From positions 1 through 64,000 of the forward strand of contig CAMVGT010000001.1 in NCBI GenBank assembly GCA_947167125.1: a stretch of 64,000 nucleotides of DNA, given 5' to 3'. The DNA comes from an uncultured Erysipelotrichaceae bacterium. GTDB taxonomy: Bacteria; Bacillota_I; Bacilli_A; Erysipelotrichales; Erysipelotrichaceae. How positions within the stretch are numbered: position 1 is the stretch's first letter; every line of letters starts with the position of its first letter. Below, piece after piece: positions 45,747-64,000 of the stretch. The position numbers and the translations under genes are program-made. A model generated the notes under the pieces. That model was not told the origin of the DNA. It did not search any database and saw only the letters and a program-made list of their open reading frames with translations.

Positions 45747-48112
45747 ACACATACCTCCGTCTTTGTCATATGCGGCTCCTTATTCCGCAGATTGAATTGA
45801 AAATGATATGTTCCGCCGGTAAGAGTGTATTCCCGATTGTCCTGCAGAATCAGATGTGCCGCTGTTCCGGATGGAACCTGACACGTATACCTGATATGAT
45901 CGCCATCGCGCTGCCAGCGGGAGAGGATCATTCCGAATTGTGTCTTATAGCTGCCCTCAGCCCATGACAGACTTCCTCCGATCACGGGTTTCAGTTCGAA
46001 TTCCTTAAATCCCGGTTTTACAGGTCTGATACCTGCGACGTACTCAAACAGGAACTGACATACCGCGCCTAAGGAATAGTGGTTGAAACTGTCTCTGAAG
46101 ACATCCATGCCGTTCCAGTTTTCCAGCATTGTTTTCGCACCGAGTGTGACGGGATGAAGCCAGGATGGAGCAGATGTCTGTTCCAGCAGTTTAAAGGCTT
46201 CCTCTTTTAATCCGTTTTCACACAGCACAGGCAGTAAGATTCCCGTGGATAGAAAGCCGGTATTCAGATGATAATCCGCTGCTTCGATTTCTTTTTTCAG
46301 CTGTCCGATCACCAGCGGCTTTTTTTCTTCGCTGACCATGTCATAGGCAAGGGCCCTGACACAGGCGGCCTGATGGCCTTTCTGGATGGTACCGTCTTCG
46401 GCGATCAGATAGCGGCTATAGGCATATTTCAGCCTGTCTGCTTTCTGTTTATAGAATTCCGCGTCTTCTTTTTTTCCAAGCACTTCCGCCATATACGCCA
46501 GCAGATCGCAGCTGTGTTTGGTGCAGGCGGTCGCTGTTTCAGGTTTTCCATACTTTGCCATGTGGCGCACAAAATCTTCGGGTTTACCGCCGTTCGCAAA
46601 TAACTCAATGACTTCTTTTGAAGGCGGTAAGGGTTCATTCCATTCACCATAATGAAATCTGGTGTCATAGATCAGATCCCCTTCACCGTTTCTGTACCAC
46701 TCCTCCTCTTGATAGAGTGGATTGGCTTCCTTCATGCAGTTCAGGGAGAAGTTCACCCATCTCTTTGCGGTTTCATAGTGGTCTGCCAGTATTTTTTTAT
46801 CTCCGTACATCTGATAGAGCTGGTACGGAATCACGACTGAACTGTCACCCCAGCCCACCGAGTCTTCACCGATATTGCCCTCTCCTTCCGGACCGGCAAG
46901 AGCCATATCCGGCCTTGTTTTACGTACTTCGATCAGTTCATCCGGATTGTGAACACTTGAAGTGGACGGAAAAGTGATTCCGAGCTTCCCGGAGTCATAC
47001 TGTTCTATGGCCTGATCCTTCAGCCACTTTTCATAGAAGGACTTTACATTCATGAAATATGCGGAAGTACGGCAATAGATTGCTGCGTCTCCTGTCCATG
47101 CATTCTTTTCCCTGGTCGGGCAGTCTGTCGCGACATCGAGGAAATTTCCTTTCTGCGACCATCTGGCATTTTCAACGAGTCTGTTGATCAGATCATTGGA
47201 ACATCTGAAATCACCGGTTTCCTCCAGATCGGAATAGACAGCGATAGCATTGAACTCTGCATCTTCAATTCCTTCCACAAGAGCATAGCGGAAGCCGAAC
47301 CATGTGAAATGCGGTTTGTATTCTTCCGCATCTGCGCCTTTGCAGATATAGGTGACTTCCTGAAAACGATCCAGACCGCCGTCACAGTTGGCAGTTGAAA
47401 AGTTTCCGTTCAGATCCAGGCCTTCACCATGTTTCAGGTGAACCGTCTGGCCGGGCTTTGTATTGAACAGTTTCATGGACACATAGCCGGCAATATTCTG
47501 ACCGAAGTCGATCACCAGATTTCCCGATGCATCCCTGAATGGTTTTCCTTCGAATACTTCATGTTCAGTGACCGGCACACCTTCTGTTTCAATGAGTGTT
47601 CCTTCTGTATGTTCATGGCACACAACAGCTTTGACCCAGCTGTTCAGTTCTCTTCGGTGATCGAAGACTTCACCTTTGAGATAATCGGAAGAAATCACTT
47701 TCCCTTCAGTGACATCAAACGATGTATCTGTCGGAATGGTGACTGTTTCGCTTTCATAGCGAAGTGTGATCTCGCCTTTTAAGGCAAGTGTATAGCCGAA
47801 ATTGTTATGCCATCTCCACCAGCCGTCGCCGACTGTTGTCTGCCAGACATTTGTCCCTTCGTTTACAAGACCGGTAATGTCATATGTCTGATACTGAATC
47901 CGGTGATAATAACTGGTAAATCCAGGTGTAAACCGGTAATCTGTCACTTCCAGGCCATTGATCTTTGTCTGGTAGATGCCATGGGAAGTCACTTCCAGAG
48001 TGGCTGAAAGCAGCCCCTTTCTGACTTCAAATGACTTCCGGAATACCGGAATCAGCGGATTCTGTTTTGTGTCCTGCGGATGTGAGATCCACAGCGCATT
48101 AGTACTGATCAT
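45743..48112 (-). CDS. GH78 alpha-L-rhamnosidase (no signal peptide)
   Basis: 'SFEVRKGLLSATLEVTSHGIYQTKINGLEVTDYRFTPGFTSYYHRIQYQTYDIT', 'TVGDGWWRW', 'DCPTREKNAWTGDAAIYCRTSAYFMNVKSFYEKWLKD'; start refined to 48112. Confidence 0.92.
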   Translation of the reverse strand: MISTNALWISHPQDTKQNPLIPVFRKSFEVRKGLLSATLEVTSHGIYQTKINGLEVTDYRFTPGFTSYYHRIQYQTYDITGLVNEGTNVWQTTVGDGWWRWHNNFGYTLALKGEITLRYESETVTIPTDTSFDVTEGKVISSDYLKGEVFDHRRELNSWVKAVVCHEHTEGTLIETEGVPVTEHEVFEGKPFRDASGNLVIDFGQNIAGYVSMKLFNTKPGQTVHLKHGEGLDLNGNFSTANCDGGLDRFQEVTYICKGADAEEYKPHFTWFGFRYALVEGIEDAEFNAIAVYSDLEETGDFRCSNDLINRLVENARWSQKGNFLDVATDCPTREKNAWTGDAAIYCRTSAYFMNVKSFYEKWLKDQAIEQYDSGKLGITFPSTSSVHNPDELIEVRKTRPDMALAGPEGEGNIGEDSVGWGDSSVVIPYQLYQMYGDKKILADHYETAKRWVNFSLNCMKEANPLYQEEEWYRNGEGDLIYDTRFHYGEWNEPLPPSKEVIELFANGGKPEDFVRHMAKYGKPETATACTKHSCDLLAYMAEVLGKKEDAEFYKQKADRLKYAYSRYLIAEDGTIQKGHQAACVRALAYDMVSEEKKPLVIGQLKKEIEAADYHLNTGFLSTGILLPVLCENGLKEEAFKLLEQTSAPSWLHPVTLGAKTMLENWNGMDVFRDSFNHYSLGAVCQFLFEYVAGIRPVKPGFKEFELKPVIGGSLSWAEGSYKTQFGMILSRWQRDGDHIRYTCQVPSGTAAHLILQDNREYTLTGGTYHFQFNLRNKEPHMTKTEVCV

Positions 48113-50544
48113 GATAACTCCCTGCTGAGTGCCAGAATTCTGGCGGCGCATGTTTCAAGATCCTCTCTTGAGATTTCTTTGTTTTCCAGTGCCTGTGCGA
48201 TCCTGTCACAGTCGGGCTGTGATCCCGGCATAATCCAGTCATTGCCGTTTTTGATACACAATGCGGCATCACTTGCGCCATAGGTTCCAAGATTCAGACG
48301 GTCACTGGTCGTTCCCCAGTCGGTCATAACGACACCGCCGAATCCCCATTCTTTTCTCAGAACGGTTGTCAGAAGATCATAATGGTTTGCGGTATGAGTT
48401 CCGTTAAGAAGATTGTAGGAAGACATAATGCATTTGGGTGCTGACTGCCTGATGCAGAGTTCAAATCCTTTTAAATAGATTTCTCTCAAAGCTCTTTCAG
48501 AAACGACACTGTTGGAGCCGAAGCGGTTGTATTCCTGATTGTTGCAGGCAAAGTGCTTGATTGTCACGGAACAGTTCTCATGTTTCTGAACGCCTCTGAC
48601 GAGTGCTGCAGCAGTAATTCCCGAGACCACCGGATCTTCGGAGCAGTATTCAAAATTGCGGCCGCATAACGGCATTCTCTGAATATTCAGAGCCGGCGCC
48701 AGCCAGATATTGATTCCGTAGATCCCCATTTCCTCACCGACGATGTCACCGCACATTTCAGGAACTTCCGGATTGTACGCCTGGGCCAGGGCAGTGCCGA
48801 TCGGAATTGCCGCGGTGAACTGATAATACTTCTGTTCAGATTCACTGATCTTTCTGATTGTGTCGATCTTTGCCTGTACGGCAGATTTGAGAGGTTCATC
48901 CAGGAACTGCACAATGTTTTCCATCGCCGCAAATTCATTGCCGAAAGCAGCACCGTCTTTGAGGATGTAGCTGGTTGCCAGACGCAGACCGGCCGGGCCG
49001 TCCGCAAGGATCAGTTTACCGAAGCCTTTTTCACTGAAGAAATCCGGGCTTTCCGCAGCCGCGCCTGCCACTGTGCTGCCGGCGTTGCCGATAATGGAAG
49101 TGCTGCTGTTTTCGTCATATCTTCCGACACACGTGCGGATCAGTTCATCATCAGTAAAATCTGAAAGATCGATCATTTCTATTTCCGGATAAGATACTCC
49201 GTTTCTGCCATAGTGGCCAATGCCTTTAAGTCCCTGTACATCTGCCTCAAAGATTTTCAATCCTTCTGTATCTGCCTGAGGCAGAGAAACTGATCTGTCT
49301 TCAAAACCGGTATTGATATGCAGATCTGTTGATTCAAGGACGGTGACTGTCTCATTAAGCCTGACCGCACAGACATTTATGCTGTCAGCCATGATCCGAT
49401 AATCTCCCTTTTCAAGAATCCAGCCAGACTGTTCCTCACTGTAGGAGGCCATATTCTCTAACGGCAGACGGAGTGTGATCTCCTCGCTTTCACCGGGCTG
49501 CAGTTCACGGGTCTTGCCATAGGTTCCAAGTTCCTTGAACGGCTTGTCAAGTGTTCCTTCAGGAGCTCTGTAATAAAGAAGAACTGTTTCCTTACCCGGG
49601 TAACTGCCTGTATTTGTGACTTTGACCGTAACGGAAAGTTCATTGTCTTTCAGTTCTGTATGAATGATCTCTTTGCCGAATTCCGTATAGCTGATTCCAT
49701 AGCCGAACGGGAACAGGGGCTTGTGATCAGTCGTGTCATAATAGCGGTAGCCGACGTAGATCCCTTCTTTGTAGCAGGTATCGTTGAGATCATAATTCTG
49801 AATCACATCACAGTCTTCCGCCTTTACCCAGGTGGCAGTGAGTTTTCCGGAAGGATAGCTTTTGCCAAGAATAATATCAGCCAGCACATCGCCGGTTACC
49901 GTACCCAGCTGTCCCAGCAGCAGAATGTTTTCCACGCTGTCTGCAACCGGTGAAAGATCAACCGGCCCGCCCACATTCAATACAAGCATGAACTTTGCAT
50001 ATTTCTCAGCGCAGCGGTGAATGTCTCTGACTTCATCATCCGTCAGAAGATAATCACCTTTCTTGATCTGCCGGTCGGATCCTTCGCCGCTGTTTCTTGC
50101 CAGGACGTAGACACAGACATCCGCATCTGAATCGATCGGAAAATCATATTCCGGCTCATCCGGTGTTTTGCCAAGCGCCGCTGCAATCACCGGAATCTTT
50201 TTCTTTTCCGCTTCTTCCCTGATCTGTCTGTAGAACTGAACAGTATTATCTGCTTTGCATGCGTCGTACCTCTCCATCCAGTCTTTTGTGACAACCGCAA
50301 AGCCTGCTTTTTCCATGCCTTCTTCGCAGGTTGTAAAATGACGGACATTCACATCGCCGGATCCGGTTCCGCCTTTAATTGTCTGCCTGGCGCCGCTGCC
50401 GTATAAAGCCAGACGGCACGTCTGTTCCAGCGGAAAGTCACCGTTTTTCTTTAAAAAGACTGTGCACTCCGGAGCGATCTTTCTGAGTGCTTCATTATGC
50501 TTTATTTCAAATTCTCTGACTGTTTTATCTGTAAATCTCTGCAT
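48109..50544 (-). CDS. GH3 beta-glucosidase with swapped domain order (GH3_C + FnIII-like first, catalytic barrel last)
   Basis: GH3_C-like N-terminal half ('LLGQLGTVTGDVLADIILGKSYPSGKLTATW'), FnIII-like 'LSVTVKVTNTGSYPGKETVLLYYRAP', then 'LADGPAGLRLATS...APALNIQRMPLCGRNFEYCSEDPVVSG...TIKHFACNNQEYNR...GVVMTDWGTTS'. Confidence 0.92.
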   Translation of the reverse strand: MQRFTDKTVREFEIKHNEALRKIAPECTVFLKKNGDFPLEQTCRLALYGSGARQTIKGGTGSGDVNVRHFTTCEEGMEKAGFAVVTKDWMERYDACKADNTVQFYRQIREEAEKKKIPVIAAALGKTPDEPEYDFPIDSDADVCVYVLARNSGEGSDRQIKKGDYLLTDDEVRDIHRCAEKYAKFMLVLNVGGPVDLSPVADSVENILLLGQLGTVTGDVLADIILGKSYPSGKLTATWVKAEDCDVIQNYDLNDTCYKEGIYVGYRYYDTTDHKPLFPFGYGISYTEFGKEIIHTELKDNELSVTVKVTNTGSYPGKETVLLYYRAPEGTLDKPFKELGTYGKTRELQPGESEEITLRLPLENMASYSEEQSGWILEKGDYRIMADSINVCAVRLNETVTVLESTDLHINTGFEDRSVSLPQADTEGLKIFEADVQGLKGIGHYGRNGVSYPEIEMIDLSDFTDDELIRTCVGRYDENSSTSIIGNAGSTVAGAAAESPDFFSEKGFGKLILADGPAGLRLATSYILKDGAAFGNEFAAMENIVQFLDEPLKSAVQAKIDTIRKISESEQKYYQFTAAIPIGTALAQAYNPEVPEMCGDIVGEEMGIYGINIWLAPALNIQRMPLCGRNFEYCSEDPVVSGITAAALVRGVQKHENCSVTIKHFACNNQEYNRFGSNSVVSERALREIYLKGFELCIRQSAPKCIMSSYNLLNGTHTANHYDLLTTVLRKEWGFGGVVMTDWGTTSDRLNLGTYGASDAALCIKNGNDWIMPGSQPDCDRIAQALENKEISREDLETCAARILALSRELS

Positions 50545-50553
50545 GCTTTTTCC

Positions 50554-51585
50554 TCACTCCAGTTCATTGACAATACCATGAAGAACGGTATCGATCTCTT
50601 TGATTTCCTTCGGTGCCATCTGCAGCATTTCCATGATCTCGCTGACCGTGTTTTTGCTTAAGACAAGCTGCAGTCCTTCCAGCTGGTAGCCTCTTGCTTT
50701 GGCGACAAGCGCCATGCCGTCGTACATCGGTCTGAGCAAAGACTGAACTTCCTCATTCTGTTTTTTCATATGGCCAAGTGAACATGCGATGCTCAGGACC
50801 GGCGCATAGTCCGCATTCAGCGACACTCTCTGTTCCGGCTCTTCAAAACCGTGATACGTCAGTTTGCCAAGTGTCTCCTTCAGCCAGCCGATACTGTCTT
50901 TTGTCCAGTCGGGAACTCTTTCCGAGACGCCGTTGGTGATGACCCAGTCTTCACCGGTCGAGAAACCATGGCCGCCGAAAGAATAAATATGGCTTTCAAA
51001 CGGAATATCCTTTTCGGCAAGCGCAAGTTCCATGCGCAGGGTGTTTGTGATATCCACTGTCTTGTCATCACGGCAGGCAGCGAAGAAGCACGGACATGTT
51101 TCCCTTGTGACATTCTGATACGGATACGGCATGCCGGGCTGGCACATATCCACGATATCTTCAAGAATCGCCGGATAGACCAGAACCGCTGCGGCAGGTC
51201 TGTGCTTTGCCTGGGTGGCAGCGACAGCCGCCAGATGGCCGCCGGCGGAGAAACCGGAAATGACGATCTTATCAGCATCGATATGCCATTCCTCACTTCT
51301 GCTCTGAATGATTTCCATCGCTTCTTCATAATCTTCCAGAGGCATCGGCCACTTTCCCTTTTTGTTAGTTGTATATCTCAGGATAAAAGCCTGATAGCCG
51401 GCCTGAAGATAAGTCAAAGCTGCCGGATCCGCTTCTCTGTCAGAACACATGGCATAGCCGCCGCCCGGCATTATCAGCATGGCCGGACGTTTTTCAAAGC
51501 CGAATTCTCCGCCTGCTTCCTGAATATATGCGGTCAGTGTGACATTTCTTTCTTCGTTCATTACGATCACTTCGCTTTTCATCAT
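50554..51585 (-). CDS. Alpha/beta-hydrolase esterase with extra C-terminal segment
   Basis: 'MLIMPGGGYAMCSDREADPAALTYLQAGYQAFILRY', nucleophile 'VISGFSAGGHLAA'. Confidence 0.85.
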   Translation of the reverse strand: MMKSEVIVMNEERNVTLTAYIQEAGGEFGFEKRPAMLIMPGGGYAMCSDREADPAALTYLQAGYQAFILRYTTNKKGKWPMPLEDYEEAMEIIQSRSEEWHIDADKIVISGFSAGGHLAAVAATQAKHRPAAAVLVYPAILEDIVDMCQPGMPYPYQNVTRETCPCFFAACRDDKTVDITNTLRMELALAEKDIPFESHIYSFGGHGFSTGEDWVITNGVSERVPDWTKDSIGWLKETLGKLTYHGFEEPEQRVSLNADYAPVLSIACSLGHMKKQNEEVQSLLRPMYDGMALVAKARGYQLEGLQLVLSKNTVSEIMEMLQMAPKEIKEIDTVLHGIVNELE

Positions 51586-52463
51586 GCTTTCCTCCAGATC
51601 TTTTTCAATTCTTCGGCAATATAGTTTTCCGCTTCTTTTGCATAAGCTTCCTGTCCGGGATTTTTCGCATCCTGATCAGGATATTCTTTATGGTTGACTT
51701 CCAGGAAGCCATGCAGGGCTTTTTCATACAGTCTGAATTCCGTACTGACACCGGCTTCTTTCAGAAGTTCGTTGTATTTTTTCGAATGTTCAGTAAGCGG
51801 ATCCGGCCCGCAGCACACAAAAACAGCAGGCGCGATTCCCGTTAACTTCTCTTTCGAAGCTGCAGCAGGAGAGATATACGGATCATTTACCGATACTCCT
51901 TCCGGGAAGAAGATCTCTTTCATGACATCCATTGTTTGCTCATCGAGCAGTCCATTGAATCTCAAAAAATCAAGGAACGGGTAGCACAGCACCTGGGCCG
52001 AGAGATCAATGCCCTGATCATGCAGGATCAAAGTGGAAGCCGCAGCCAGATGGCCGCCTGCCGAAAATCCCATCACGGCAAATTTATCTCTGTCCAGCTG
52101 GTATTCTTCACTGTGTTCCAGGAAGTATTTCACTGTATCCGCGATTTCATTCTGGGGATACGGAAACGGATGGATATCCAGTTTGGTGTAATTGATGTTG
52201 ACAATAAAGGCGCCGCACTTTTCCGCCATATCAAGGCAATAGGAATCAAGTTCACTTGCATCGCAGCCGACCCAGGCACCGCCATGGATGCAGAAGATCA
52301 CCGGGTAAGGTGCTTCTGTATTGTGCGGACGGTACAGGAAAACATTCACAGGATCAGTGTCTTCTCTTTTCACCTGAAACGCTTCCCCTTTTGTGTCTTT
52401 CCAGACTTCCTGTTTTCTTTTGAGGCGGATCATCTTTTTCATCATTTCAGTTTTCAGACTCAA
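51582..52463 (-). CDS. Alpha/beta-hydrolase (Aes/HSL-like esterase)
   Basis: 'PVIFCIHGGAWVGCDASELDSYC', 'VMGFSAGGHLAAAS', 'LHGFLE'. Confidence 0.88.
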   Translation of the reverse strand: MSLKTEMMKKMIRLKRKQEVWKDTKGEAFQVKREDTDPVNVFLYRPHNTEAPYPVIFCIHGGAWVGCDASELDSYCLDMAEKCGAFIVNINYTKLDIHPFPYPQNEIADTVKYFLEHSEEYQLDRDKFAVMGFSAGGHLAAASTLILHDQGIDLSAQVLCYPFLDFLRFNGLLDEQTMDVMKEIFFPEGVSVNDPYISPAAASKEKLTGIAPAVFVCCGPDPLTEHSKKYNELLKEAGVSTEFRLYEKALHGFLEVNHKEYPDQDAKNPGQEAYAKEAENYIAEELKKIWRKA

Positions 52464-52466
52464 TGT

Positions 52467-53366
52467 TTACACCATGTCCTTCCTGTATTCACACATTCCG
52501 TACAGACGGCGGGCCATATCCGCCTTGTAGCGGAAACAGTCTTCCCTGAGCTTGTTCTGCAAAGGCATTTCTTCCGCTTTGTCTGTACCGAAACCGTGAT
52601 AGCCTTCTTCGTATTTTCTCAGATCGACAAGTTTTCCATGTTCTCTGAGCAGCTGTGCATAGCGTTCCCCCTGTGGATGCAAAGGGTCTTTTCCGCAGAC
52701 GATGACAACTGCCGGGGAAAGCTTTTCCAGGGTTTCTTCTGTGATCTTCGCTGCCGGGGAAAGCACTTCGCTGTCCAGAGGAATCTCCGGCGGATAGAGG
52801 GAAAACATCATGTCATACAGTTTGTTTCCTTCCGGGAAATCAATCGGGATACTTCCTGTAAAATCCAGAAAAGGCACTTCCATGATCTGTCCGGCAATCG
52901 GAATATCTTCCTTCGCCAGCAGGATCGCTGATCCGGCTGTCAGATGTCCTCCGGCGCTGCCGCCGGACAGCACGATTCTGTCAGGATCAATGCCGAGCTG
53001 TTCCGCGTTTTTCTTCAGCCACTTCACAGTATCGACAACTTCTTCCTGCGGATACGGGAAACTCTTGTCATACAGTCTTTTGTAATTGACATTGACCACA
53101 AAGGCGCCAAGCTCTTCGCTTAATCTCTGGCAGTAGCGGTCATCGTCGACGGCATCCATGCCGACCCAGGCACCGCCGTGGATCTGCACGAAGACCGGAG
53201 CGTTTTTCTGTTCCTTCGGAAAGTAAAGAATCACTTCCACAGGGTCCTTGCCTTCCCGTTGTATTTTTGCCCTCTGGCCGATGACAGGATCCGTCGCGTA
53301 ATGCTTATTGATCCTGTGAAAGCGGGCGTTGAATATTGCTTTTTTAATCATGTTCAGCGGTTTCAT
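52467..53366 (-). CDS. Alpha/beta-hydrolase (Aes/HSL-like esterase)
   Basis: 'VFVQIHGGAWVGMDAVDDDRYC', 'VLSGGSAGGHLTAGS', 'YHGFG'. Confidence 0.88.
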   Translation of the reverse strand: MKPLNMIKKAIFNARFHRINKHYATDPVIGQRAKIQREGKDPVEVILYFPKEQKNAPVFVQIHGGAWVGMDAVDDDRYCQRLSEELGAFVVNVNYKRLYDKSFPYPQEEVVDTVKWLKKNAEQLGIDPDRIVLSGGSAGGHLTAGSAILLAKEDIPIAGQIMEVPFLDFTGSIPIDFPEGNKLYDMMFSLYPPEIPLDSEVLSPAAKITEETLEKLSPAVVIVCGKDPLHPQGERYAQLLREHGKLVDLRKYEEGYHGFGTDKAEEMPLQNKLREDCFRYKADMARRLYGMCEYRKDMV

Positions 53367-55662
53367 ATGTCACCTCGATGTTTAGTTCACCTGTACCGCG
53401 GATAACGGCCATTGCCCGTCCCTGCCAGGTTTTTACGGTTCTTTCGAAATAGTTCTCTTCGCTTTTCGGATCAGCTGATCCCAGACCCAGAAGCTCAGGA
53501 TTGTGTTCTTCCCTGACTGTCAAAGTCATAATCACATCCGGATTCGGAATGCCTTTCTCATCCGTGACTGTGAATTCAATAATTCCTTCTGCTGTTTCTT
53601 TCTGTTCCACATGCACATCGTAAGAAGCGGAAACCAGTTCGTCTGTCTCTGCTGCCTGTCCGTTACGGATGTTAACAGCTTTGATGGTTCCCGGTTCAAA
53701 CACGGCTCTAAAGAAAGCTTTGTCACAAACGGTCTTTTCTTTCCCGATCAGTCTTTCATTGATATAGAGTTCCACTTCATCCGCGTCGGAATAGACTTCC
53801 ACAATAATGGGATTTCCTTCCTGTCCGCGGTAATTCCAGCGTCTTTCGGCGTCGCTCCATCCCCATTTTGTCGGTGCCTGTTTCTCACCGTAATGTGCGG
53901 GATCCTGCACGGCGATATAAGGTTCTTTTCTGAGTCCCCAGACAATCTCCCGCCAATAGGAGACGGGTCTGCGGTTTCCAATCAAATCAAAATCTCCGCA
54001 GCCGGCTGAGCGCCAGGGATATTTTCCGTAAAGATCATTGCTGTCTGCCTCGCCATAGCGGTGCTGGCCGACGCCGGCTTCCCCCAGATAATCCCAGGCT
54101 GCCCAGCCGAAGTCGCCGATGATCTGCGGATATTTCATGCACAGCTGCCAGTTTTCATACAGAGAAGCGGGATAGCATTCCGTTCCCAGAATGATCCGCT
54201 GAGGATACTTTCTGATATCCGTTTCATAACGGAATTCAGCATAGTTGTAGCCGGCAATGTCTGTCTGGCTGAAAGCCTCTTCCAATGGTTTTCCCATTTC
54301 ATCTGACATCAGTATTTTGTAAAGTTCCTCCATATTGCCGTTGAGAATGGAATTGATATCCACCCCTGCTTTTACGGCAAGTTCGGGAATTTTATCCAGC
54401 ATGGCAAGAATCATATTGATAGAGTTGACTGTATATCTTGTCTGATCCAGGCTGCGGATCAGATCTGTGATCTTTCTGCCGTACTGCACTTCATGGGGAT
54501 GGCTGACTTCCAGGATTTCATTGCCGATGGAATAGATGATCACAGAAGGATGATTGTACGCAAGTTTCACCATTGCTTCTGTATCCTGCTTCCAGTCATT
54601 GCGGAATTCACATGAGCAATCCCCTTCAACCTTCGGCACAGTCCATGCGTCGCATAACTCCAGCATCACCAGCATGCCGGTCTCATCGCAGGCTTCCAGC
54701 ACGGTGCGGCTCGTGGGGAAATGAGCACAGCGGATGGCGTTGTATCCGGCTTCTTTGAGTTTTCTGATCCGCCGGTAAGTCATCGCTTCATGTTCGGTTC
54801 CACCGATGATTCCATGATCCTGATGAATGCAGCCGCCGCGGAGTTTTGTTTCTTCACCATTGATCCGCAATCCTCTGAACGGATCCAAAGAAAGGGTACG
54901 GATTCCGAAACGGACTGTTTCGGTGTCATATCCGCACAGTTCTGTCTGACATTCATACAGCGATGGGCTTTCAGTACTCCACAGGCGGGGATTCTTTATA
55001 TGGAAACGAAGTATTACTGTCTTTGTTTCACCCGGTTCCATTGTGACTGTCGTTCTGATTTCTTCGTTTTCGATCCTGTGTGCAAGCTGTAAAGATGCGC
55101 GGGATCTCAGACGGTTAGCGATTTCCGTGCTGATGGACAGTTCGGCCGCTTCCTGATCCGCGTGCAGGACTGTCACTTTGACACCATTGGGCACAATGTA
55201 TATGTCTTTCCCCCGGTACAGCCACACATCCCGATAGATGCCGGTTCCCGGATACCAGCGTGAGGAAGTAACACTGTTTCTGACAATTACTTTCAAGGAG
55301 TTTGAACCCTGTCTGACATATTGAGACAGATCTGTCAGCAGCGGGGTATATCCGTTTGCATGCTGTGCGATCAGACTTCCGTTGAGATAAACAGAAGCGT
55401 TTTTATAGATTCCTTCAAATTCCAGATAAAGTGTTTCAGATACATCATCCACGGTGAATGTCTTTGTATAGCAGGCCGATGTATACGGATAGTATCCGGA
55501 CGCATTGCCGGCGGGTGCGTGTTCATCCCGCCTCTGATGAATCATGGCGTCATGAGGAAGTGTTACTTTCTCTGCCGCTGTTTCTCCCCGGATCGTTTTT
55601 TCAAGTGCTGTCCCGATGCCTGTCTGATACTGCCATTCCTCATTGAAACATTCCTTTTTCAT
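53344..55662 (-). CDS. GH2-family glycosidase (beta-galactosidase-like)
   Basis: Start refined to ATG 55662 (GGGAGG). 'SGYYPYTSACYTKTFTVDD', 'YLEFEGIYKNASVYLNGSLIAQHANGYTPL', 'LRGGCIHQDHGIIG', 'GYNAIRCAHFPTS', 'IIYSIGNEILE'. Confidence 0.9.
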   Translation of the reverse strand: MKKECFNEEWQYQTGIGTALEKTIRGETAAEKVTLPHDAMIHQRRDEHAPAGNASGYYPYTSACYTKTFTVDDVSETLYLEFEGIYKNASVYLNGSLIAQHANGYTPLLTDLSQYVRQGSNSLKVIVRNSVTSSRWYPGTGIYRDVWLYRGKDIYIVPNGVKVTVLHADQEAAELSISTEIANRLRSRASLQLAHRIENEEIRTTVTMEPGETKTVILRFHIKNPRLWSTESPSLYECQTELCGYDTETVRFGIRTLSLDPFRGLRINGEETKLRGGCIHQDHGIIGGTEHEAMTYRRIRKLKEAGYNAIRCAHFPTSRTVLEACDETGMLVMLELCDAWTVPKVEGDCSCEFRNDWKQDTEAMVKLAYNHPSVIIYSIGNEILEVSHPHEVQYGRKITDLIRSLDQTRYTVNSINMILAMLDKIPELAVKAGVDINSILNGNMEELYKILMSDEMGKPLEEAFSQTDIAGYNYAEFRYETDIRKYPQRIILGTECYPASLYENWQLCMKYPQIIGDFGWAAWDYLGEAGVGQHRYGEADSNDLYGKYPWRSAGCGDFDLIGNRRPVSYWREIVWGLRKEPYIAVQDPAHYGEKQAPTKWGWSDAERRWNYRGQEGNPIIVEVYSDADEVELYINERLIGKEKTVCDKAFFRAVFEPGTIKAVNIRNGQAAETDELVSASYDVHVEQKETAEGIIEFTVTDEKGIPNPDVIMTLTVREEHNPELLGLGSADPKSEENYFERTVKTWQGRAMAVIRGTGELNIEVTYETAEHD

Positions 55663-55687
55663 AAGTCCGTCCCTCCCGGCTTTTGTC

Positions 55688-55732
55688 TGATACAAATGTA
55701 TCATAGTGGCATCTTGTGAGACAATTGTTTCA
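55688..55732. promoter_or_regulatory. Tandem operator-like palindromes upstream of GH2
   Basis: TGATACAAATGTATCA (55688-55703) and TGAGACAATTGTTTCA (55717-55732), 29-nt spacing; same arrangement at 62994-63038. Confidence 0.7.
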
Positions 55733-55758
55733 TAGAAAATGAGACACCGGAAAGGTGT

Positions 55759-55890
55759 TTGTATCAGATGCATCCAAAGAAATCATGTCAGGGAACCGAC
55801 ATAAAAAAGATATGTACCAAGGCAGGCCAAAGCCGGCAAGAGGATACATATCATACGCGTTATTCTGATTGGTTTTTTCTTACAGACAGA
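55759..55890 (+). pseudogene. Decayed tetR-type regulator remnant divergent from GH2
   Basis: 'TTG TAT CAG ATG CAT CCA' matches the intact tetR start 'TTG TAT CAG ATG AAT CCA'; translation 'TDIKKICTKAGQSRQEDTYHTRYSDW' resembles a TetR HTH, cf. intact 'TDISISEICDKAQVGRASFYRNYDSK'; reading frame then degenerates. Confidence 0.65.
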
Positions 55891-55951
55891 TGCCGGAAAG
55901 AGCGTTCAGCTTTGACTTCACGGGCTCAATCCGGCTTTATGACACGTTTTT

Positions 55952-57079
55952 TCACAGCAGATGCGCAAGGCCGATCTTCAGCATTTCACCATTGACACCT
56001 TTTTCCATCCATTCAGCTGCTGTGATGCCTTCTTCACGGACAGTGAAGGCAGCGGAACCCGCCAGGATGCAGTGTGATGTGAGATCCGCCTCCTTATAAG
56101 CGGGCTCCGGTTTGTAAAAGTAAAACAGTCCAATTTCAGGAATTGCGGCCATAAGGGCATCTGCCATATCCGCAAGATGTTTCTGAAAACGGTCCCCCGT
56201 TTCCTTTGTCGGATTCCAGTTTCTGTCTTCCTCCAGATAGCCGACATACTGTGTCAAAGCCCAGTCACGGCTGGAGCAGCAGTACATGATTTTAACTTCC
56301 GGGCGTTTATCATGCAGGGCAGTGAGACTGTCGGTGACGATTTCCGTACCGGTCAGTCTTGCGCAGATTTCTTCCGGAGCGTCCCAGACTTCGCGCGCAA
56401 TGGTCTGCCAGTTATTGTGCATCATGGCGCTGTCGCATATGACTGTAACATCATGACAGGCCGGAAATTCACCGATGATATCATCTGCCAGCAGTGCCGT
56501 TCCGAATGCCCCGGCAGAAAAGCCGGTGATAATCAGCTTTTCAGGATTCGGAACCAGTTCCCTGACTTTTTCAAGCAGCAGTCTGTAATTGATGTATCCG
56601 TGATGCCTGAGAATCTGAGGGTTTCCATTCAGGTCCGTATAGGGATAATCACTGCGGCCGCAATGGAAGTCGCCCGTCGTATACGGCAATACAGCAACCG
56701 TCCAGTCACAAAACGGATTCTTTTTTGAACGCCCGTTGGTTCCGGTGCGCAGCAGAATGTCGGCAGTTTCCGCCTCAACGGCATAGAAGTTCTGCTTATC
56801 TCTGTTTCCCGGTTTATTCGGTCTGGCAGCTGTATACTCATCGAAAGAGACACCTCCGCCGCAGAATGACAGCATCAGTTTATTTTCTTTTCCCAGACGG
56901 ATGCAGCCGTAAACAGGCTTGTTTTCAGCTGTAACAGCTCCTTGCGGCCAGTACTCATAGCCTTTGCCAACAGCTGGTTTTTCAGGCAGTTCGCCATAAC
57001 GGAAAGCCGTAATCAGACGATAAGCCAGTCTGTCTCTGAAAGTCCAGCCGGTTTTGTCAGGGTTGATCTTATGTTTTTT
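55952..57079 (-). CDS. Pectinacetylesterase-family hydrolase (paralogue 1)
   Basis: 'LMLSFCGGGVSFDEYTAARP', 'PYTTGDFHCGRSDYPY', 'HHGYINYRLLLEKV', 'IITGFSAGAFGTALLADD'; start refined to 57079. Confidence 0.8.
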   Translation of the reverse strand, partial: KKHKINPDKTGWTFRDRLAYRLITAFRYGELPEKPAVGKGYEYWPQGAVTAENKPVYGCIRLGKENKLMLSFCGGGVSFDEYTAARPNKPGNRDKQNFYAVEAETADILLRTGTNGRSKKNPFCDWTVAVLPYTTGDFHCGRSDYPYTDLNGNPQILRHHGYINYRLLLEKVRELVPNPEKLIITGFSAGAFGTALLADDIIGEFPACHDVTVICDSAMMHNNWQTIAREVWDAPEEICARLTGTEIVTDSLTALHDKRPEVKIMYCCSSRDWALTQYVGYLEEDRNWNPTKETGDRFQKHLADMADALMAAIPEIGLFYFYKPEPAYKEADLTSHCILAGSAAFTVREEGITAAEWMEKGVNGEMLKIGLAHLL

Positions 57080-57083
57080 CATA

Positions 57084-58508
57084 TCAGCCTTCCGTATCAT
57101 CTGATTGATATGGCGTTACCGTACGCTCCCACGCCATTCCGTTTTCTTTGAAAGCGGCCAGCGGCGGGAACTTTTTAAAGGCAGCCGGACAGATTTCATC
57201 CGGCGCTTTTCCTTCTTCCACCCAGGCTTTTAAGGTTAATAACCCCAGGTGCTTTTCATCCTTCGGTGTGGCCGGCATTCCGTAGACATAGTCCTGAACA
57301 CCCGGGCCGCCGGTGATATGTGCCATGCCCGGCAGCAAAAACAGGCGGAAGAAACCGGATGGGTCCCCCATTGTCTTCTGAACATCTTCGTAATAACGGA
57401 TGGAACTTGTCATCGGAATGATCGGATCTGCTGTGCCGTGTACAAGCAGAAGTTTTCCGCCATGGTTTTTAAAGGCTGTTAAGTCGGTATTGACTGCATC
57501 AAGATGAGAAGACAGTGCTTCACGTACCAGTGTTCCATCTCTGTTCAGATCAAAGTCCATGAAATTGAAGTCTTCACCGAGCACCCAGCGGAACAGATAG
57601 AAATAACTCTTTTCAAAATTGGTCTTTTCACATCGATGAACCAGTGCCATCCCGCTGCCTTCGCTCCCCGGTGTCAGTGTTCCTTCATATACACCCGGCA
57701 GGCCTTTATATACCGCCATCAATGCATCAAGCTGTGTCTTATCCACGCCGGCATCTTTCAGCAGTTCACGGGTAACCGTGATCCTGTCAGGCCTGTAAAA
57801 GAATTTGTCTTTATTCAGGCGCTGCCCTTGTGCCGCGCATTTCTTCAGAAAGGTTCTGACAAGCTTCTTTTCCTGTCTTTTCGTAAAAGGACGGACGCCT
57901 TCTGCATTCAGACGCTGCCAGTCCCTGAGAAATGCCAGATGCAGATTAACGCGGTCATAAGCCGGAGCGCATGCCAGAATTCCGTCATAATCTTCGGGAT
58001 AGCGCTGAGCTTCACTGAACGCCTGCTGTCCGCCTGTTGAGCCGCCGATAAAGTAGGAATGACGGACCTGTTCACCATAATATCCTGCTGTAAGAGCCTG
58101 GCCCACAGCAGTCATGATATGAGTAGCGCGGTGGCCGAAGTCATCCCAGACCGCCTTGTTGCCAATACCGCAGTCAGGACCTGCCGAAGTTCCCAGATCC
58201 GTTGTAACTGAGGCAAATCCCAGCTTCAGCGGACCCGCCAGCATCATCGGCAGGATCATTCCGGCAGCGCCGCCATTGCCGACACCGGCCAGATCGCCGT
58301 TCCATCCGGAAACAGGGAGCCAGAGTTCAATTCTGATATTGCTTTCCGGCACAGGTCTTGCCGTCACGCATACAGCAACGTGTTCCGGAATATTTTTCAG
58401 CGGCATCATCGGAAGACTTTTATCGTCACCGGCAGGAACCGTTTCTGCCCGGGTGATTTCACAGTTCTCCGGCAGGAAGTGCATCAGTTTTTCTTTCAGG
58501 TCGCTCAT
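57084..58508 (-). CDS. Tannase/feruloyl-esterase-family protein
   Basis: 'GWNGDLAGVGNGGAAGMI', 'GFASVTTDLGTSAG', 'SYFIGGSTGGQQAFSEAQRYPEDYDGILACAPAYD', 'LLVHGTADPIIPMTSSIRYYE'. Confidence 0.88.
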   Translation of the reverse strand: MSDLKEKLMHFLPENCEITRAETVPAGDDKSLPMMPLKNIPEHVAVCVTARPVPESNIRIELWLPVSGWNGDLAGVGNGGAAGMILPMMLAGPLKLGFASVTTDLGTSAGPDCGIGNKAVWDDFGHRATHIMTAVGQALTAGYYGEQVRHSYFIGGSTGGQQAFSEAQRYPEDYDGILACAPAYDRVNLHLAFLRDWQRLNAEGVRPFTKRQEKKLVRTFLKKCAAQGQRLNKDKFFYRPDRITVTRELLKDAGVDKTQLDALMAVYKGLPGVYEGTLTPGSEGSGMALVHRCEKTNFEKSYFYLFRWVLGEDFNFMDFDLNRDGTLVREALSSHLDAVNTDLTAFKNHGGKLLLVHGTADPIIPMTSSIRYYEDVQKTMGDPSGFFRLFLLPGMAHITGGPGVQDYVYGMPATPKDEKHLGLLTLKAWVEEGKAPDEICPAAFKKFPPLAAFKENGMAWERTVTPYQSDDTEG

Positions 58509-58524
58509 GATTGCTCACCTGCAT

Positions 58525-60000
58525 TCAGTATTTTCTGCTCAGCTGAGCCTCACACTCTTCACGTGTGATCTGACCGGCATTGCATTTGGACATCAGTTCA
58601 GCGTCTTTGTCCTTCAGGTTATAGAACAGATAGAGCAGAACTGCTGAAATTCCGAATCCGGCCGCAGGGATGAGATAGCCAAGATTCCAGAGAGTATTGA
58701 GCGCAGCCGCCGACTGGGTCACGCCCTGAGCAGCCAGGTCAGCGAAGCTGTCCCCGACGACTTCCTTCCAGCCGGAGGCCGCAAGAATGTACAGGGCAAC
58801 AGAGCCGACCAGACCTGTTAACGCTTTGTTCAGGAATGACTGCAGTGAATAGAAGATTCCCGAACAGTCTTTGCCGGTTTTATACCGTGTATATTCGATT
58901 GTATCCGGTGCAATGTATGTTCTGACCACACTGATCAAAGCATTGGGGATTGCACACAGGCCGCCGAGAACAATGAACAGCATTTTGTTGTCACGGCAGA
59001 AGAAGTAAATAATCAGAGTCGCAGCCGCCAGCAGAACGAAGATGAATGCCAGAAGGTTTCTCTTGCCGAACTTATCTGCCAGTCTGCCGCAGAAGGCGCT
59101 GAGAATAATACCCGGCACAAACCCGATCAGCATAACGTAAGTCAATATCATGGAATCGTGGAAAATATAGAAACCGATAAAGCCTTCCACGGCAGTACGC
59201 GTGCAGAGCAGTGTTGAAATGATGACGGCCAGGAAATAAACCATGATGTATTTGTTTGTGAATACACAGTTGATCATGTCTTTGAAAGTATACTTTTCCT
59301 GAGAACCCTCGTTTTCAACATTTTTAAGTTCTGTATTATGTTCCTGCACCTTGAATACCATGGGAATCATGAAGACAAGGAAGATCAGCGAACCGCCGAT
59401 ACCGATGTTTTTCAGGGGAACACCGAATCTTTCGCTTAAGAGTGCGGAAACGATCACTGACATTCCGATTGCCGAAACAACTGTGATCACGCCCTTCACT
59501 GTCAGAATGCTGTTTCTCTCGGATGGACTGTCCGTGAGTGTTGTGATCATGGACTGCATCGGAACTTCGGTCAGTGTACATGTAAAGTCATAGAGCAGAT
59601 ATGTCACAAAGAACCAGATGATTTTCACTGAATCCGGTGCGTTCTTCGGCATCATGAAGAACAAAATTGTCGCAGCAGGGAAAGTCCAGAAGAACAGACG
59701 ATACCATGGCATGTACTTGCCTCTGCCCGCAAACCGCTGGACCAGTTTCCATTTCTTTATGTCAATTTTGTCAATAATGAATCCAAACAGCACATCATCC
59801 ACTGAGTCAATGATTTTGACAAGCAGGATCGAAGTGGCCAGTGATACGGTACTGATTCCCTGGAACATAAGGAACATAGTCATGTATGATCCGACCAGTG
59901 AAGTGCAGAACAGACGCGCTGTGTCGCCGACATAATACCAGTTCTTCTCCGAGCGGCTGAGCTGCCAGTCCGGATGCTTGTTGATTTTTTCCTTTGCCAT
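58525..60000 (-). CDS. GPH-family (MelB-like) MFS sugar/glycoside symporter
   Basis: 'DSVDDVLFGFIIDKIDIKKWKLVQRFAGRGKYMPWYRLFFW' GPH motif; ~12 TM pattern. Confidence 0.9.
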   Translation of the reverse strand: MAKEKINKHPDWQLSRSEKNWYYVGDTARLFCTSLVGSYMTMFLMFQGISTVSLATSILLVKIIDSVDDVLFGFIIDKIDIKKWKLVQRFAGRGKYMPWYRLFFWTFPAATILFFMMPKNAPDSVKIIWFFVTYLLYDFTCTLTEVPMQSMITTLTDSPSERNSILTVKGVITVVSAIGMSVIVSALLSERFGVPLKNIGIGGSLIFLVFMIPMVFKVQEHNTELKNVENEGSQEKYTFKDMINCVFTNKYIMVYFLAVIISTLLCTRTAVEGFIGFYIFHDSMILTYVMLIGFVPGIILSAFCGRLADKFGKRNLLAFIFVLLAAATLIIYFFCRDNKMLFIVLGGLCAIPNALISVVRTYIAPDTIEYTRYKTGKDCSGIFYSLQSFLNKALTGLVGSVALYILAASGWKEVVGDSFADLAAQGVTQSAAALNTLWNLGYLIPAAGFGISAVLLYLFYNLKDKDAELMSKCNAGQITREECEAQLSRKY

Positions 60001-60011
60001 TGTCTTTCTCC

Positions 60012-60974
60012 CTAAATGTATTTTTCAATAAATGACATCATTCTGTTAAATGCTTCGTCTGCGTGAGGTTCTTTTCCGACGTTGTCCATATATCCGTGGG
60101 GAAGGTTCTCTTCCGGGAAATACACCAGATCATTCGGTACTCCGATATGATCCAGGACCTTCTTCAGATCTCTTCCCTCTTTGATGAAGAAGCCGTTTTC
60201 CCCTCCCTCATTGGAGGCGTTGATCCAGCTTGGGACATAGGAATCTTTGAGATAGTTCTTTGCGTTGATCATCGCCGTGTCTTCCGGCGTGTTCCTTTTC
60301 GCCCCGGTCCAGCAGCCCAGCATTGCATACATCTTTGAATCGAATACGGATGAATCAAGAGCTGCTTCGTCAATTGCCAGAACCCTGAGGTTTTCTTTTG
60401 TCATGACCGGTGTCACATTCAGCTGCTCCGCGTATTCCGGACTGCAGACACATGCCCCGTAAATTTCTGTCATAATCGCTCCGGCACTGCCGCCCGACAG
60501 GCATACATGGTTCATATCAAGCCTGTATTCTTCCTGATGATCCAGAAGGAAACGGAACAGCTCATCCAGCTGGCGGATCTGGGATGGGAAGCGGTACTGC
60601 GGTGCAAGTGCGTAGTCCGCGTTGACCAGCGCGTATCCCTGTTCAATGATCTTCATCAGTTTGCCGGTCTTCTCTTCCCCTGCCGAAAGCGGATCACCCG
60701 AAGATTTATTTCCGAAGATGAAGCCGCCGCCATGGCAGTACACAACAACCGGATATTTTTGATCTGTGTTGTCAGGCAGCCAGATGTCCGCGAAGCTGTT
60801 GGGATAATTCCCGCCGTAGCAGACATCGTTATGCAGGATCACCCCGTTGTTCATCTGAACAGTACCCGGCTCTTTCCAGGGCTTCCATTCATTCGGTTTA
60901 TGCCCTTTATATACTTTTGAATAAATGATCTTCTGCAGTCCCCTGCAGATCATGTCGTTAATCCATCTGCTCAT
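60012..60974 (-). CDS. Alpha/beta-hydrolase (HSL-like esterase)
   Basis: 'PVVVYCHGGGFIFGNKSSGDPLS', 'VCLSGGSAGAIMTE', 'PHGYMDN'. Confidence 0.88.
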   Translation of the reverse strand: MSRWINDMICRGLQKIIYSKVYKGHKPNEWKPWKEPGTVQMNNGVILHNDVCYGGNYPNSFADIWLPDNTDQKYPVVVYCHGGGFIFGNKSSGDPLSAGEEKTGKLMKIIEQGYALVNADYALAPQYRFPSQIRQLDELFRFLLDHQEEYRLDMNHVCLSGGSAGAIMTEIYGACVCSPEYAEQLNVTPVMTKENLRVLAIDEAALDSSVFDSKMYAMLGCWTGAKRNTPEDTAMINAKNYLKDSYVPSWINASNEGGENGFFIKEGRDLKKVLDHIGVPNDLVYFPEENLPHGYMDNVGKEPHADEAFNRMMSFIEKYI

Positions 60975-62106
60975 CTGTGTCCTCCAGCAGTTTCATTCCG
61001 ATGTTTTCCTGTTTTCCTAAGATTGCCTCTTTGATCCACTGCGCACAGCTGACATTTTCAATCCGGTAATCATAGAAGACCTGATCCTGCAGAAGACAGT
61101 GTTTTGTAAGGCCTGTTTTCTTCTGCTTTTTCTCAGGACAGTCAGTGATATAAAACTGTGCCTGCGGAATTGTTTCTTTCATTTCCTTCACAGTTCCGGT
61201 AAACCATTCCTGAAATCTTTCACCGCTTTCTTCTGTGAAGGTAAATGTACAGTTTTCGATATAGTTGATCATCCTGGACAGTCCTTCATCGCGTATTGAG
61301 CAGGTCACCAGGATTTTCACTCTGTCCTGTCTCTCTCTGCTTAAAGCCTGCAGGGCGTCGAGTGTGATGTTGTCGGAATGAATTCTTTCTGTGATCTCTG
61401 GCGGTGACTTCCAGACATTCTCTGCGATGTCATGCCAGCCTTGAAGCGGGAAGAAGCCGCTGTCAATCACGCTGATGATGTTTTCACATGCCGGATAAAG
61501 CTCCATGACATCGTCTGTTAACAGCGCCGCTCCGAAAGCTCCTCCCGAGCAGCCGGTCACAGCGATGCACTCTGGATCAGGCACATATTTCATGACTGTT
61601 TCCATTGCCTTGCGGTAATTGGTATAGCCATGGTGATGACAGATCCTCTTTGAGCCATCCTGAGCTGTGTATGGGAAATCGTTTGTTCCGGCATGGAAAT
61701 CACCGGTATCGTAGATCAGAATCAGTTTTGACCAGTCCCAAAACGGATTCTCTTTTCTTTCCGCGAAGATTCCGCTGTCCAGCCTGAGATCGCTGAACAG
61801 ATCCATGTGAATGGTATAGAATCCAAGGCTTGTGTCTTTTGAATAAAGGGAAGCGGGATGCGCGGCTGTATATTCATTCCAGCTGACGCCTCCTCCCATG
61901 AAGAAGATGAGAAGTTTGTTTTCACTGCCTTTTTTAAAATCGGCGTAGGTCTTTTCACCATTGGCTGCCAGACAGCCATCCAGCGGAATCCGCACCCATT
62001 TACCTGTTTCCGGCTCCCCCTTCAGTTGGGGTAAACGTTTCTTTTTCAGATACGGCGTCAGAACTTTCAGCCATAACGGCTCCTTTTCCCATTGATCCAG
62101 TTTCAT
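60958..62106 (-). CDS. Pectinacetylesterase-family hydrolase (paralogue 2)
   Basis: 'LLIFFMGGGVSWNEYTAAHP', 'YDTGDFHAGTNDFPY', 'HHGYTNYRKAMETV', 'AVTGCSGGAFGAALLTDD'. Confidence 0.8.
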   Translation of the reverse strand: MKLDQWEKEPLWLKVLTPYLKKKRLPQLKGEPETGKWVRIPLDGCLAANGEKTYADFKKGSENKLLIFFMGGGVSWNEYTAAHPASLYSKDTSLGFYTIHMDLFSDLRLDSGIFAERKENPFWDWSKLILIYDTGDFHAGTNDFPYTAQDGSKRICHHHGYTNYRKAMETVMKYVPDPECIAVTGCSGGAFGAALLTDDVMELYPACENIISVIDSGFFPLQGWHDIAENVWKSPPEITERIHSDNITLDALQALSRERQDRVKILVTCSIRDEGLSRMINYIENCTFTFTEESGERFQEWFTGTVKEMKETIPQAQFYITDCPEKKQKKTGLTKHCLLQDQVFYDYRIENVSCAQWIKEAILGKQENIGMKLLEDTDEQMD

Positions 62107-62114
62107 CTTTCACC

Positions 62115-62966
62115 TCAGCTAATCCGGTCAGGATCGATTACAATCGAAGGTCCCTTATGCTTTGTGTCTTCTTCAGCCCACACCTGCAGCGGTGTAACGC
62201 CTGGAGCGAATGCGCCGCCCTTCTGTTTTTTCCCGTGTGAGAGGCCGGGATGTTCTGCCACATTGATCCAGTCTTTGAGATCTTTGCGGCCGAACAGTTT
62301 CAGGCTGTGTCCGGTCAGAATCGTATCGAAGTCATATTTCTCCAGTTTGTGAAGGCTGGCAGCGTATGCCCTGATATCCGTGGATTCCGGCAGATATAGC
62401 CATGTGGCAGGATTTGCGCCATCGGATGTAATCATCAGTTTCTTCTCTTTGAAGTAAACCGCGATACTGCCCTGTGTGTGACCGGGTATCTCAATAACCT
62501 GAGCGCTCAGGCCGCCCAGATCAAACGTGTCCCCTTCTTTGACAAACTGCCAGTCAGAGAAGTTTACTCTTCCTTCATCTGTGTCTTCCGGATGCTTCGG
62601 CACCAGAATCCGCCAGAAGAAGATTTTATTGAACACTTTCAGCGTTTTCTCCATGTAGCGGTGGAATGAAGGCTCATTGTGCTGCTTATAAATCTCCGCG
62701 TCTTTTTCATGAATGTGTACCGGTGTATTGAAGTAAAAGTTTCCGCCGGTATGATCGATGTGACCGTGTGTGTTGAATACGGTCAGCGGCAGATCCGTGA
62801 ATTCCCTGATATATGCTTTCAGATCCGCGAATCCATATGCCGTATCAATCACGCAGGCTTTTTCTTTTCCGATGATCAGAAAACAGGCAACGCCGGAAGA
62901 TGTGATTCCATAGACGCCATCCATCAGTTTTTTGCACTTATATGTCTTTTTAAGTTCTTTCTCCAT
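62115..62966 (-). CDS. Metallo-beta-lactamase-fold hydrolase
   Basis: 'TVFNTHGHIDHTGGNFYF', 'IEIPGHTQGSIAVYF', 'ILTGHS'. Confidence 0.92.
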   Translation of the reverse strand: MEKELKKTYKCKKLMDGVYGITSSGVACFLIIGKEKACVIDTAYGFADLKAYIREFTDLPLTVFNTHGHIDHTGGNFYFNTPVHIHEKDAEIYKQHNEPSFHRYMEKTLKVFNKIFFWRILVPKHPEDTDEGRVNFSDWQFVKEGDTFDLGGLSAQVIEIPGHTQGSIAVYFKEKKLMITSDGANPATWLYLPESTDIRAYAASLHKLEKYDFDTILTGHSLKLFGRKDLKDWINVAEHPGLSHGKKQKGGAFAPGVTPLQVWAEEDTKHKGPSIVIDPDRIS

Positions 62967-62993
62967 GACCCTTTCCTCCGCTTGACTTTCATC

Positions 62994-63038
62994 TGATACA
63001 TTTGTATCATAACAGTGCGATGTGAGACAATTGTTTCA
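62994..63038. promoter_or_regulatory. Tandem operator-like palindromes between the MBL-hydrolase and tetR genes
   Basis: TGATACATTTGTATCA (62994-63009) and TGAGACAATTGTTTCA (63023-63038), near-identical to 55688-55732. Confidence 0.75.
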
Positions 63039-63073
63039 TAGAAAATGAGACACACAAAAGGAGTTTGTATCAG

Positions 63074-63613
63074 ATGAATCCACAGGAAAAAAACACTTAT
63101 GTAAAACAGCAGATTACAAAGGCGCTGATCAGCCTGATGAAAAAGAAAAAAATCACCGACATCTCAATCAGTGAAATCTGTGACAAAGCCCAGGTAGGCA
63201 GAGCATCCTTTTACCGCAATTATGATTCAAAAGAAGAAGTCATCGAAAAACACGCAGAATACCTCATCCATTCATGGGCTGACCAGGTGGATGTGGATCC
63301 TGGCGCGAATATTTACAACTTTTTTGCAAGCATGTTCAAACACTTTCAGGACAACAGCGGTTTTTACAAAGTTCTCTATAAGCAGAACATGTCGCCGATG
63401 ATTCTGAACGCCATACGTAAAAGACTGAATGTCAGTCCCAATACAGATCCGGCCGCTTTATACAGCAGCGCTTATATCGCTTACGGAATATTCGGATGGA
63501 TCGACATCTGGTTCAGCAACGGCATGAAAGAAACGCCGGAAGAACTCAACCGCATTATTGTAAACAACATCAACACCATGATCAAAGGAGCCAAAGAACT
63601 CGAAGAACTCTGA
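63074..63613 (+). CDS. TetR/AcrR-family regulator
   Basis: 'VKQQITKALISLMKKKKITDISISEICDKAQVGRASFYRNYDSKEEVIEKH' HTH; RBS AAAGGAG 10 nt before ATG 63074. Confidence 0.9.
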   Translation: MNPQEKNTYVKQQITKALISLMKKKKITDISISEICDKAQVGRASFYRNYDSKEEVIEKHAEYLIHSWADQVDVDPGANIYNFFASMFKHFQDNSGFYKVLYKQNMSPMILNAIRKRLNVSPNTDPAALYSSAYIAYGIFGWIDIWFSNGMKETPEELNRIIVNNINTMIKGAKELEEL

Positions 63614-63616
63614 AAT

Positions 63617-63654
63617 AAAAGCGAAGCCGGATCATAAACCGGTTTCGCTTTTTT
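63617..63654. terminator. Bidirectional terminator between convergent genes
   Basis: AAAAGCGAAGCCGG..CCGGTTTCGCTTTTTT. Confidence 0.75.
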
Positions 63655-64000
63655 CATCTGTTCTTCTCTATATCCTGCCAGTTGGAATTATGCAGGATCT
63701 CAGCGTCTTCCCCAAGGAAAGCTTTTCCTGCTTCTTCGTTCCCCTGCAGCTGATACAGCATCCAGGCGGTCATATAGCCGTCTGTTCTCATCAGCATCTC
63801 TTCATGTTCCGCGCCTGCCGCCCTGGCTCTGATCTTCATCACATCCTCCGGAACCTGCTCATAGTTTTCAATCAGCGCAGACAGCGGTGATACGCCTCCG
63901 TATTCTTTTGTCGGGTCCTTCACTCCCTTGTCATCGGACTTTCCGGTTCCGGCGGTCATGAAATACGGGATGCGGATTTTTGTCACATCATAATGCCAGC
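63654..64000 (-). CDS. Alpha/beta-hydrolase C-terminal part, runs off right edge
   Basis: Reading frame stays open upstream of the listed GTG: '...WHYDVTKIRIPYFMTAGTGKSDD', an alpha/beta-hydrolase acid-residue region. Confidence 0.6.
   Translation of the reverse strand, partial: WHYDVTKIRIPYFMTAGTGKSDDKGVKDPTKEYGGVSPLSALIENYEQVPEDVMKIRARAAGAEHEEMLMRTDGYMTAWMLYQLQGNEEAGKAFLGEDAEILHNSNWQDIEKNR

Follow-up and report, generated by a model that had tools for sequence, protein, structure and literature searches.

An intact TetR-family regulator encoded within the 64,000-nt stretch of Erysipelotrichaceae DNA analyzed here (the window) probably governs three-element operators at three adjacent promoters, one of which (OP1) appears to be a copied tetR promoter that has kept its operators in front of a dead tetR start (estimated probability about 0.78). 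An earlier note on the window had proposed that one TetR was wired to two promoters by duplication of a regulator-promoter module and loss of one of the regulators. Both of these promoters, OP1 at 55.7 kb and OP2 at 63.0 kb, were found to carry the shared module, but the count was incomplete, as a third module (OP3) is located just beyond the window.

Three copies of one operator module

The segments 55680–55785 (OP1) and 62986–63088 (OP2) showed 82% identity over 106 nt (E = 4e-26), which bears out the near-identity and the positions reported in the earlier note. Both segments contain TGATACA-N2-TGTATCA (O1) at 55688–55703 and 62994–63009, a perfect palindrome at OP1 (TGATACAAATGTATCA; TGATACATTTGTATCA at OP2), followed by TGAGACAATTGTTTCA (O2) at 55717–55732 and 63023–63038, with the equal start-to-start spacing of 29 nt noticed before; O1 and O2 of OP2 were assigned by pattern search and comparison of copies. 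Searching the 2.87-Mb genome with TGANACANNTGTNTCA gave five strict matches, every one inside a single stretch of approximately 10 kb (two at OP1, two at OP2 and one at OP3, C1:65.8 kb), and the reversed pattern gave none; the pair is therefore not a chance occurrence. With one mismatch allowed, 18 places were found in the genome, a total near the chance expectation from base counts, and one of them was part of OP3.

A third element, TGAKACA-N13-TGTWTCA, was present in OP1, OP2, and OP3 (55740–55766, 63046–63072, and 65819–65845), reading TGAGACA-N13-TGTATCA at OP1 and OP2. At OP2 it overlaps the Shine-Dalgarno sequence of tetR (GGAG, 63060–63063) and stops just short of the tetR ATG. The pattern had four matches in the genome, three of them at the operator modules; the sole other match was found at C3:92768–92794. 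Successive elements were centered 29 and then 28.5 bp apart at OP1 and OP2; at OP3 the two distances were 28 and 28.5 bp.

OP3 (C1:65768–65845; L029:2869–2946), which lies 1.8 kb beyond the window and had not been seen in the earlier note, was also matched (C1:65769–65826) by a 100-nt query from 55.7 kb. It contains CGAAACAAATGTATCA and TGATACATTTGTTTCA at 28-nt spacing and has the same three elements, without a tetR gene behind them. Directly downstream is a leftward operon of PAE3 and an alpha/beta hydrolase, the latter on the reverse strand from 63654 to 64000 and beyond the window.

The literature look-up gave no report that matched TGATACA-N2-TGTATCA as a TetR operator. The half-sites of the third element lie one helical turn further apart than those of O1 and O2, a gap at odds with a simple TetR dimer site. 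Tentatively, and with rather more doubt than confidence, the array with its period of about 29 bp, the last element of which is placed on the ribosome-binding site and start codon of the regulator, might be an unusual TetR-array architecture that was copied as a unit to enlarge a local regulon.

Genes behind the modules

Downstream of OP2, tetR (63074–63613, forward strand) was intact as the earlier note had described, encoding 179 amino acids with an N-terminal helix-turn-helix domain (TetR_N, PF00440; 30.1 bits, cut-off 24) and a ligand-binding domain (TetR_C_8, PF14278; 44.5 bits, cut-off 26.1). The best domain and structure matches were to the DhaS/TetR_C_8 group (PF14278, TIGR02366; structures 3kkc, 4mk6, and 2iu5), with a score of 32.2 bits for the DhaS equivalog TIGR02366, far below its cut-off of 129. 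This was the sole close copy of the regulator in the genome, the runner-up being 29% identical. Orthologs with 71–91% identity were found in Erysipelotrichaceae MAGs, several of them from the gut of ruminants (named Solobacterium by NCBI).

According to domain searches, the first gene behind OP1 encodes a beta-galactosidase-like glycoside hydrolase of family 2 (GH2; 53344–55662, reverse strand), and the rest of this operon (45743–53366, reverse strand) encodes three alpha/beta-hydrolase esterases, a GH3 enzyme and an alpha-L-rhamnosidase. The leftward operon of OP2 (55952–62966, reverse strand) was predicted by the same means to encode an MBL-fold hydrolase, a pectinacetylesterase-like protein (PAE1), a BD-FAE esterase, an MFS_2 sugar transporter, a tannase/feruloyl esterase and PAE2; read-through from this operon into GH2 may occur. 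The predicted target enzymes suggest a plant phenolic ester or a decorated sugar as the inducer. PAE2 was also considered as a recent copy of PAE3, implying duplication of the whole tetR-PAE segment, which was rejected as a recent event since the PAE1, PAE2, and PAE3 groups are more than one change per site apart.

A tetR relic behind OP1

The earlier note had read a remnant of the TetR helix-turn-helix (TDIKKIC...YHTRYSDW) in the broken frame behind OP1. This reading did not hold, as the similarity was not significant in the window and in the wrong register: the 78-aa ORF had no match in Pfam, the TDIKKICTKAGQSRQ stretch gave p values of 0.19–0.30 against tetR in DNA shuffles, and the TetR profile scored 1.3 bits on the relic frame of the window (E = 0.3). 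A relic was nevertheless detected in relatives of the window genome. At the same spot in sister genome G040, ATGAATTCGCAG-AAAAAAACACGTATG aligned to ATGAATCCACAGGAAAAAAACACTTATG of tetR (z 5–7) and, one frame over after a frameshift, EKNTYAKEPIKK aligned to EKNTYVKQQITK at the N-terminus of tetR; a weaker resemblance to the tetR start was also found at OP1 in G044 and G017. The 55.8-kb region of these relatives does align to the start of tetR, and alignment through G040 placed ACCGACATAAAA of the window at about codons 10–16 of tetR rather than in the helix-turn-helix. On these alignments we take the relic to be real and best seen in the sister genome, with a dead tetR 5′ end at 55768–55860 (forward strand) that consists of the start codon (55768–55770) and diverged sequence equivalent to about 30 codons, itself without coding signal in the window. 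In-frame stops were found in the relic frame of G066, G041, G040, G044, and G017.

Two further observations concern this region. The sequence AGAGGATACATATC within the relic (55836–55855), which resembles an operator half-site, was kept in all six genomes with OP1 despite diverged flanks. Approximately 70 nt (55875–55949), flanked by a repeated TTTTTTC run, were absent from G066 and G041, which looks like a repeat-mediated deletion in these genomes.

Duplication of the module followed by loss of the regulator is in agreement with a second copy that has a dead tetR start and with one intact tetR of its type in the genome, but only about the first 30 codons are recognizable. The comparison of relatives proposed in the earlier note showed no second intact tetR in the genomes searched. 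A serious alternative, to which we give somewhat less than even odds, is that only the bidirectional promoter and the first tetR codons were copied, and that a full second regulator never existed to be lost. Similarity to tetR past about codon 30 was not recognizable in any of the six genomes, and less than 250 nt separate the relic start from the PAE2 stop, whereas tetR measures 540 nt. However, a full copy that was partly deleted and then decayed would give the same picture, and both the MFS2-tannase-PAE2 block directly behind the relic and the convergent order of tetR and hydrolase at OP2-OP3 fit a longer imported module.

Distribution in related genomes and probable origin of OP1

Of 273 genomes of the family, 10 carried tandem operators. 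OP1 and OP2 were both present in six of them (the window genome, G066, G041, G040, G044, and G017), 7.2–7.4 kb apart and with the same intervening genes. In G291, the TetR of which is 74% identical, GH2 adjoins the transporter gene without OP1, tannase and PAE2 in between, and the transporter of the window (58525–60000) was only 47% identical to its counterpart there, compared to 67–86% for neighboring genes. The transporter was thus probably replaced together with the insertion of tannase and PAE2, and OP1 probably entered within an insertion MFS2-tannase-PAE2-[tetR relic-OP1] located between GH2 and the older part from MBL to BD-FAE. In G291, two genes reading like an IS21-type istB/istA pair were located between PAE3 and the operator module (L060:12794–15366) and would sever that operon from the module.

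Most of the middle operon was missing from G013 and G279, in which OP2-tetR was kept. We infer a loss, since the TetRs of these genomes group with those of OP1-bearing genomes (86/98) in a TetR tree that is poorly resolved. A truncated MBL gene was found beside OP2 in both (G279, L056:9381–9893; G013, L053:9483–9851), with tetR intact. The OP1-bearing genomes did not form one clade in the TetR tree, and three changes are needed. Loci L037–L043 of the same genus encode TetRs of about 40% identity, divergent from a hydrolase 64–67% identical to that of the OP3 operon and followed by a BD-FAE-like gene, an arrangement that is possibly an older form of the regulon.

Conservation of the OP1 operators

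A multiple comparison of the six OP1 copies showed all 46 predicted operator bases to be invariant, compared to 22 of 41 other columns (Fisher p = 3.5e-8). This agrees with the claim of the earlier note that the operator was retained at the second site. At fourfold-degenerate sites of the adjacent GH2 gene, 96 of 254 (38%) were invariant in the same genomes; given this rate and independence, 46 invariant neutral columns are expected with a probability of about 4e-20.

A leftward promoter of the GH2 operon may be drawn within the OP1 palindromes (55695–55724, reverse strand), with a putative −35 TTGTCT (55724–55719) in O2 and, after a spacer of 18 bp, an extended −10 TGA-TACATT (55700–55695) in O1. 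The same layout can be drawn at OP2 (TTGTCT in O2, 18-bp spacer, TGA-TACAAA in O1), and both candidates scored below the cut-off of the sigma-70 consensus scanner. If these promoters are right, their geometry explains the 29-bp distance, and one TetR on O1 and O2 would block both directions.

The position of the putative −10 and −35 inside O1 and O2 could also mean that RNA polymerase is the only reason why the duplicated promoter was conserved, with OP1 palindromes that are no longer regulatory. This is improbable: invariance extends to all 46 element bases, among them half-sites that fall outside the promoter hexamers and the third element, which lies upstream of the leftward −35 and would be superfluous in a plain promoter.

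The probable regulator of the operator sites

At OP2, the predicted palindromes overlap the promoter of tetR itself. Palindromes beside a regulator gene are no proof of which protein binds them, and the assignment of TetR 63074–63613 to OP1, OP2, and OP3 is made from sequence comparison. Upstream of the genes for TetRs that are only 35–40% identical, from the same genus and order, and that have kept the GRxSFYRNY recognition stretch, the same or nearly the same palindromes were found; most of these TetRs were also encoded near esterase genes.

Reading of the sites by a different regulator, e.g., a repressor of the BlaI/CopY type, was considered because the core TACANNTGTA resembles, and is contained in, O1, and because four genes of the Penicillinase_R family are present in the genome. 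We regard it as improbable: the refined cop operator RNYKACANNTGTMRNY (PMC7253601) matched none of the OP1, OP2, and OP3 sites, O2 (GACAATTGTT) is without the core, the nearest of the four genes is 127 kb away, and the motif tracks the tetR subfamily even at 35–40% identity. A CopY/BlaI regulator as reader of the sites was thus not supported.

Loss of tetR signals at OP1 and proposed mechanism

The tetR promoter at OP2 (62982–63010, forward strand) consists of TTGACT (62982–62987), a 17-bp spacer and TATCAT (63005–63010), and overlaps O1. Its −35 and the Shine-Dalgarno GGAG were each invariant in all 10 tetR-linked copies and missing from all six OP1 copies: CCGGCT is found at the −35 position of OP1 in the window, and GGTG, GCCG or GACG at the Shine-Dalgarno position of the OP1 copies. 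At OP1, the operator is therefore under strong constraint while the signals for tetR expression are gone: a retained operator stands beside a dead regulator unit. OP1 has also kept an ATG, but this triplet is part of the extended half-site TGTATCAGATG, which is reverse-complementary to CATCTGATACA at O1 of OP2, and its survival is thus no evidence of translation. That the frame 55759–55995, open in the window, encodes a small functional protein instead of being a relic is hardly credible, as it is broken by stops in the five genomes named above and the 78-aa ORF has neither a family match nor a good Shine-Dalgarno sequence or −35.

The copied operators have remained unchanged while the copied tetR decayed, so that one regulator probably controls three side-by-side promoters. 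In the mechanism that we infer, TetR 63074–63613 would bind its own divergent promoter (OP2) and the promoters of the GH2-esterase-GH3-rhamnosidase (OP1) and PAE3-hydrolase (OP3) operons. It would repress its own gene, since O1 covers the tetR −10 at OP2, and the same binding would silence the catabolic operons through the putative leftward −10 and −35 inside O1 and O2 at OP1 and OP2. The repression would be relieved by an effector that is probably a phenolic or sugar freed from plant material. OP1 would have arisen when the tetR promoter and at least the first 30 or so tetR codons were copied or imported upstream of GH2 with the tannase-PAE2 block; its tetR would afterwards have lost the −35, the Shine-Dalgarno sequence and the reading frame, while selection kept every operator half-site unchanged.

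Comparison with known systems

Autoregulated divergons are a known kind of TetR system. The present locus shares with such local divergent autorepressors a divergent tetR, palindromes over the promoter and an adjoining catabolic operon, but differs from them in having one module at three promoters within approximately 10 kb, one of them with a dead copy of the start of the regulator. Compared to the DhaS/TetR_C_8 group, the regulator reached 32 of 129 bits, and no dihydroxyacetone kinase genes were seen near it. FarR/FarE of Staphylococcus aureus (PMC12671165) is similar in arrangement, with a TetR-type regulator, a divergent target and several operator sites per intergenic region, but serves efflux, whereas the locus described here is predicted to serve catabolism. 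Our results predict a small regulon for the breakdown of plant esters and glycosides in poorly studied ruminant-gut Erysipelotrichaceae.

Regulons of LacI-family regulators have been reported to grow through duplication of the regulator together with the regulated gene or operon (PMC4052901). Duplication of both regulator and site and gain of regulated genes would be common to those cases and the present one; here, however, the second regulator is dead, and the two sites would end up under one shared regulator rather than diverge. The locus may represent an intermediate of regulatory network growth, and the occurrence of live, dead and no-regulator states in several related species makes the order and selective value of the steps testable. 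What the locus adds to these systems is a live, a dead and an absent regulator behind one conserved three-element module.
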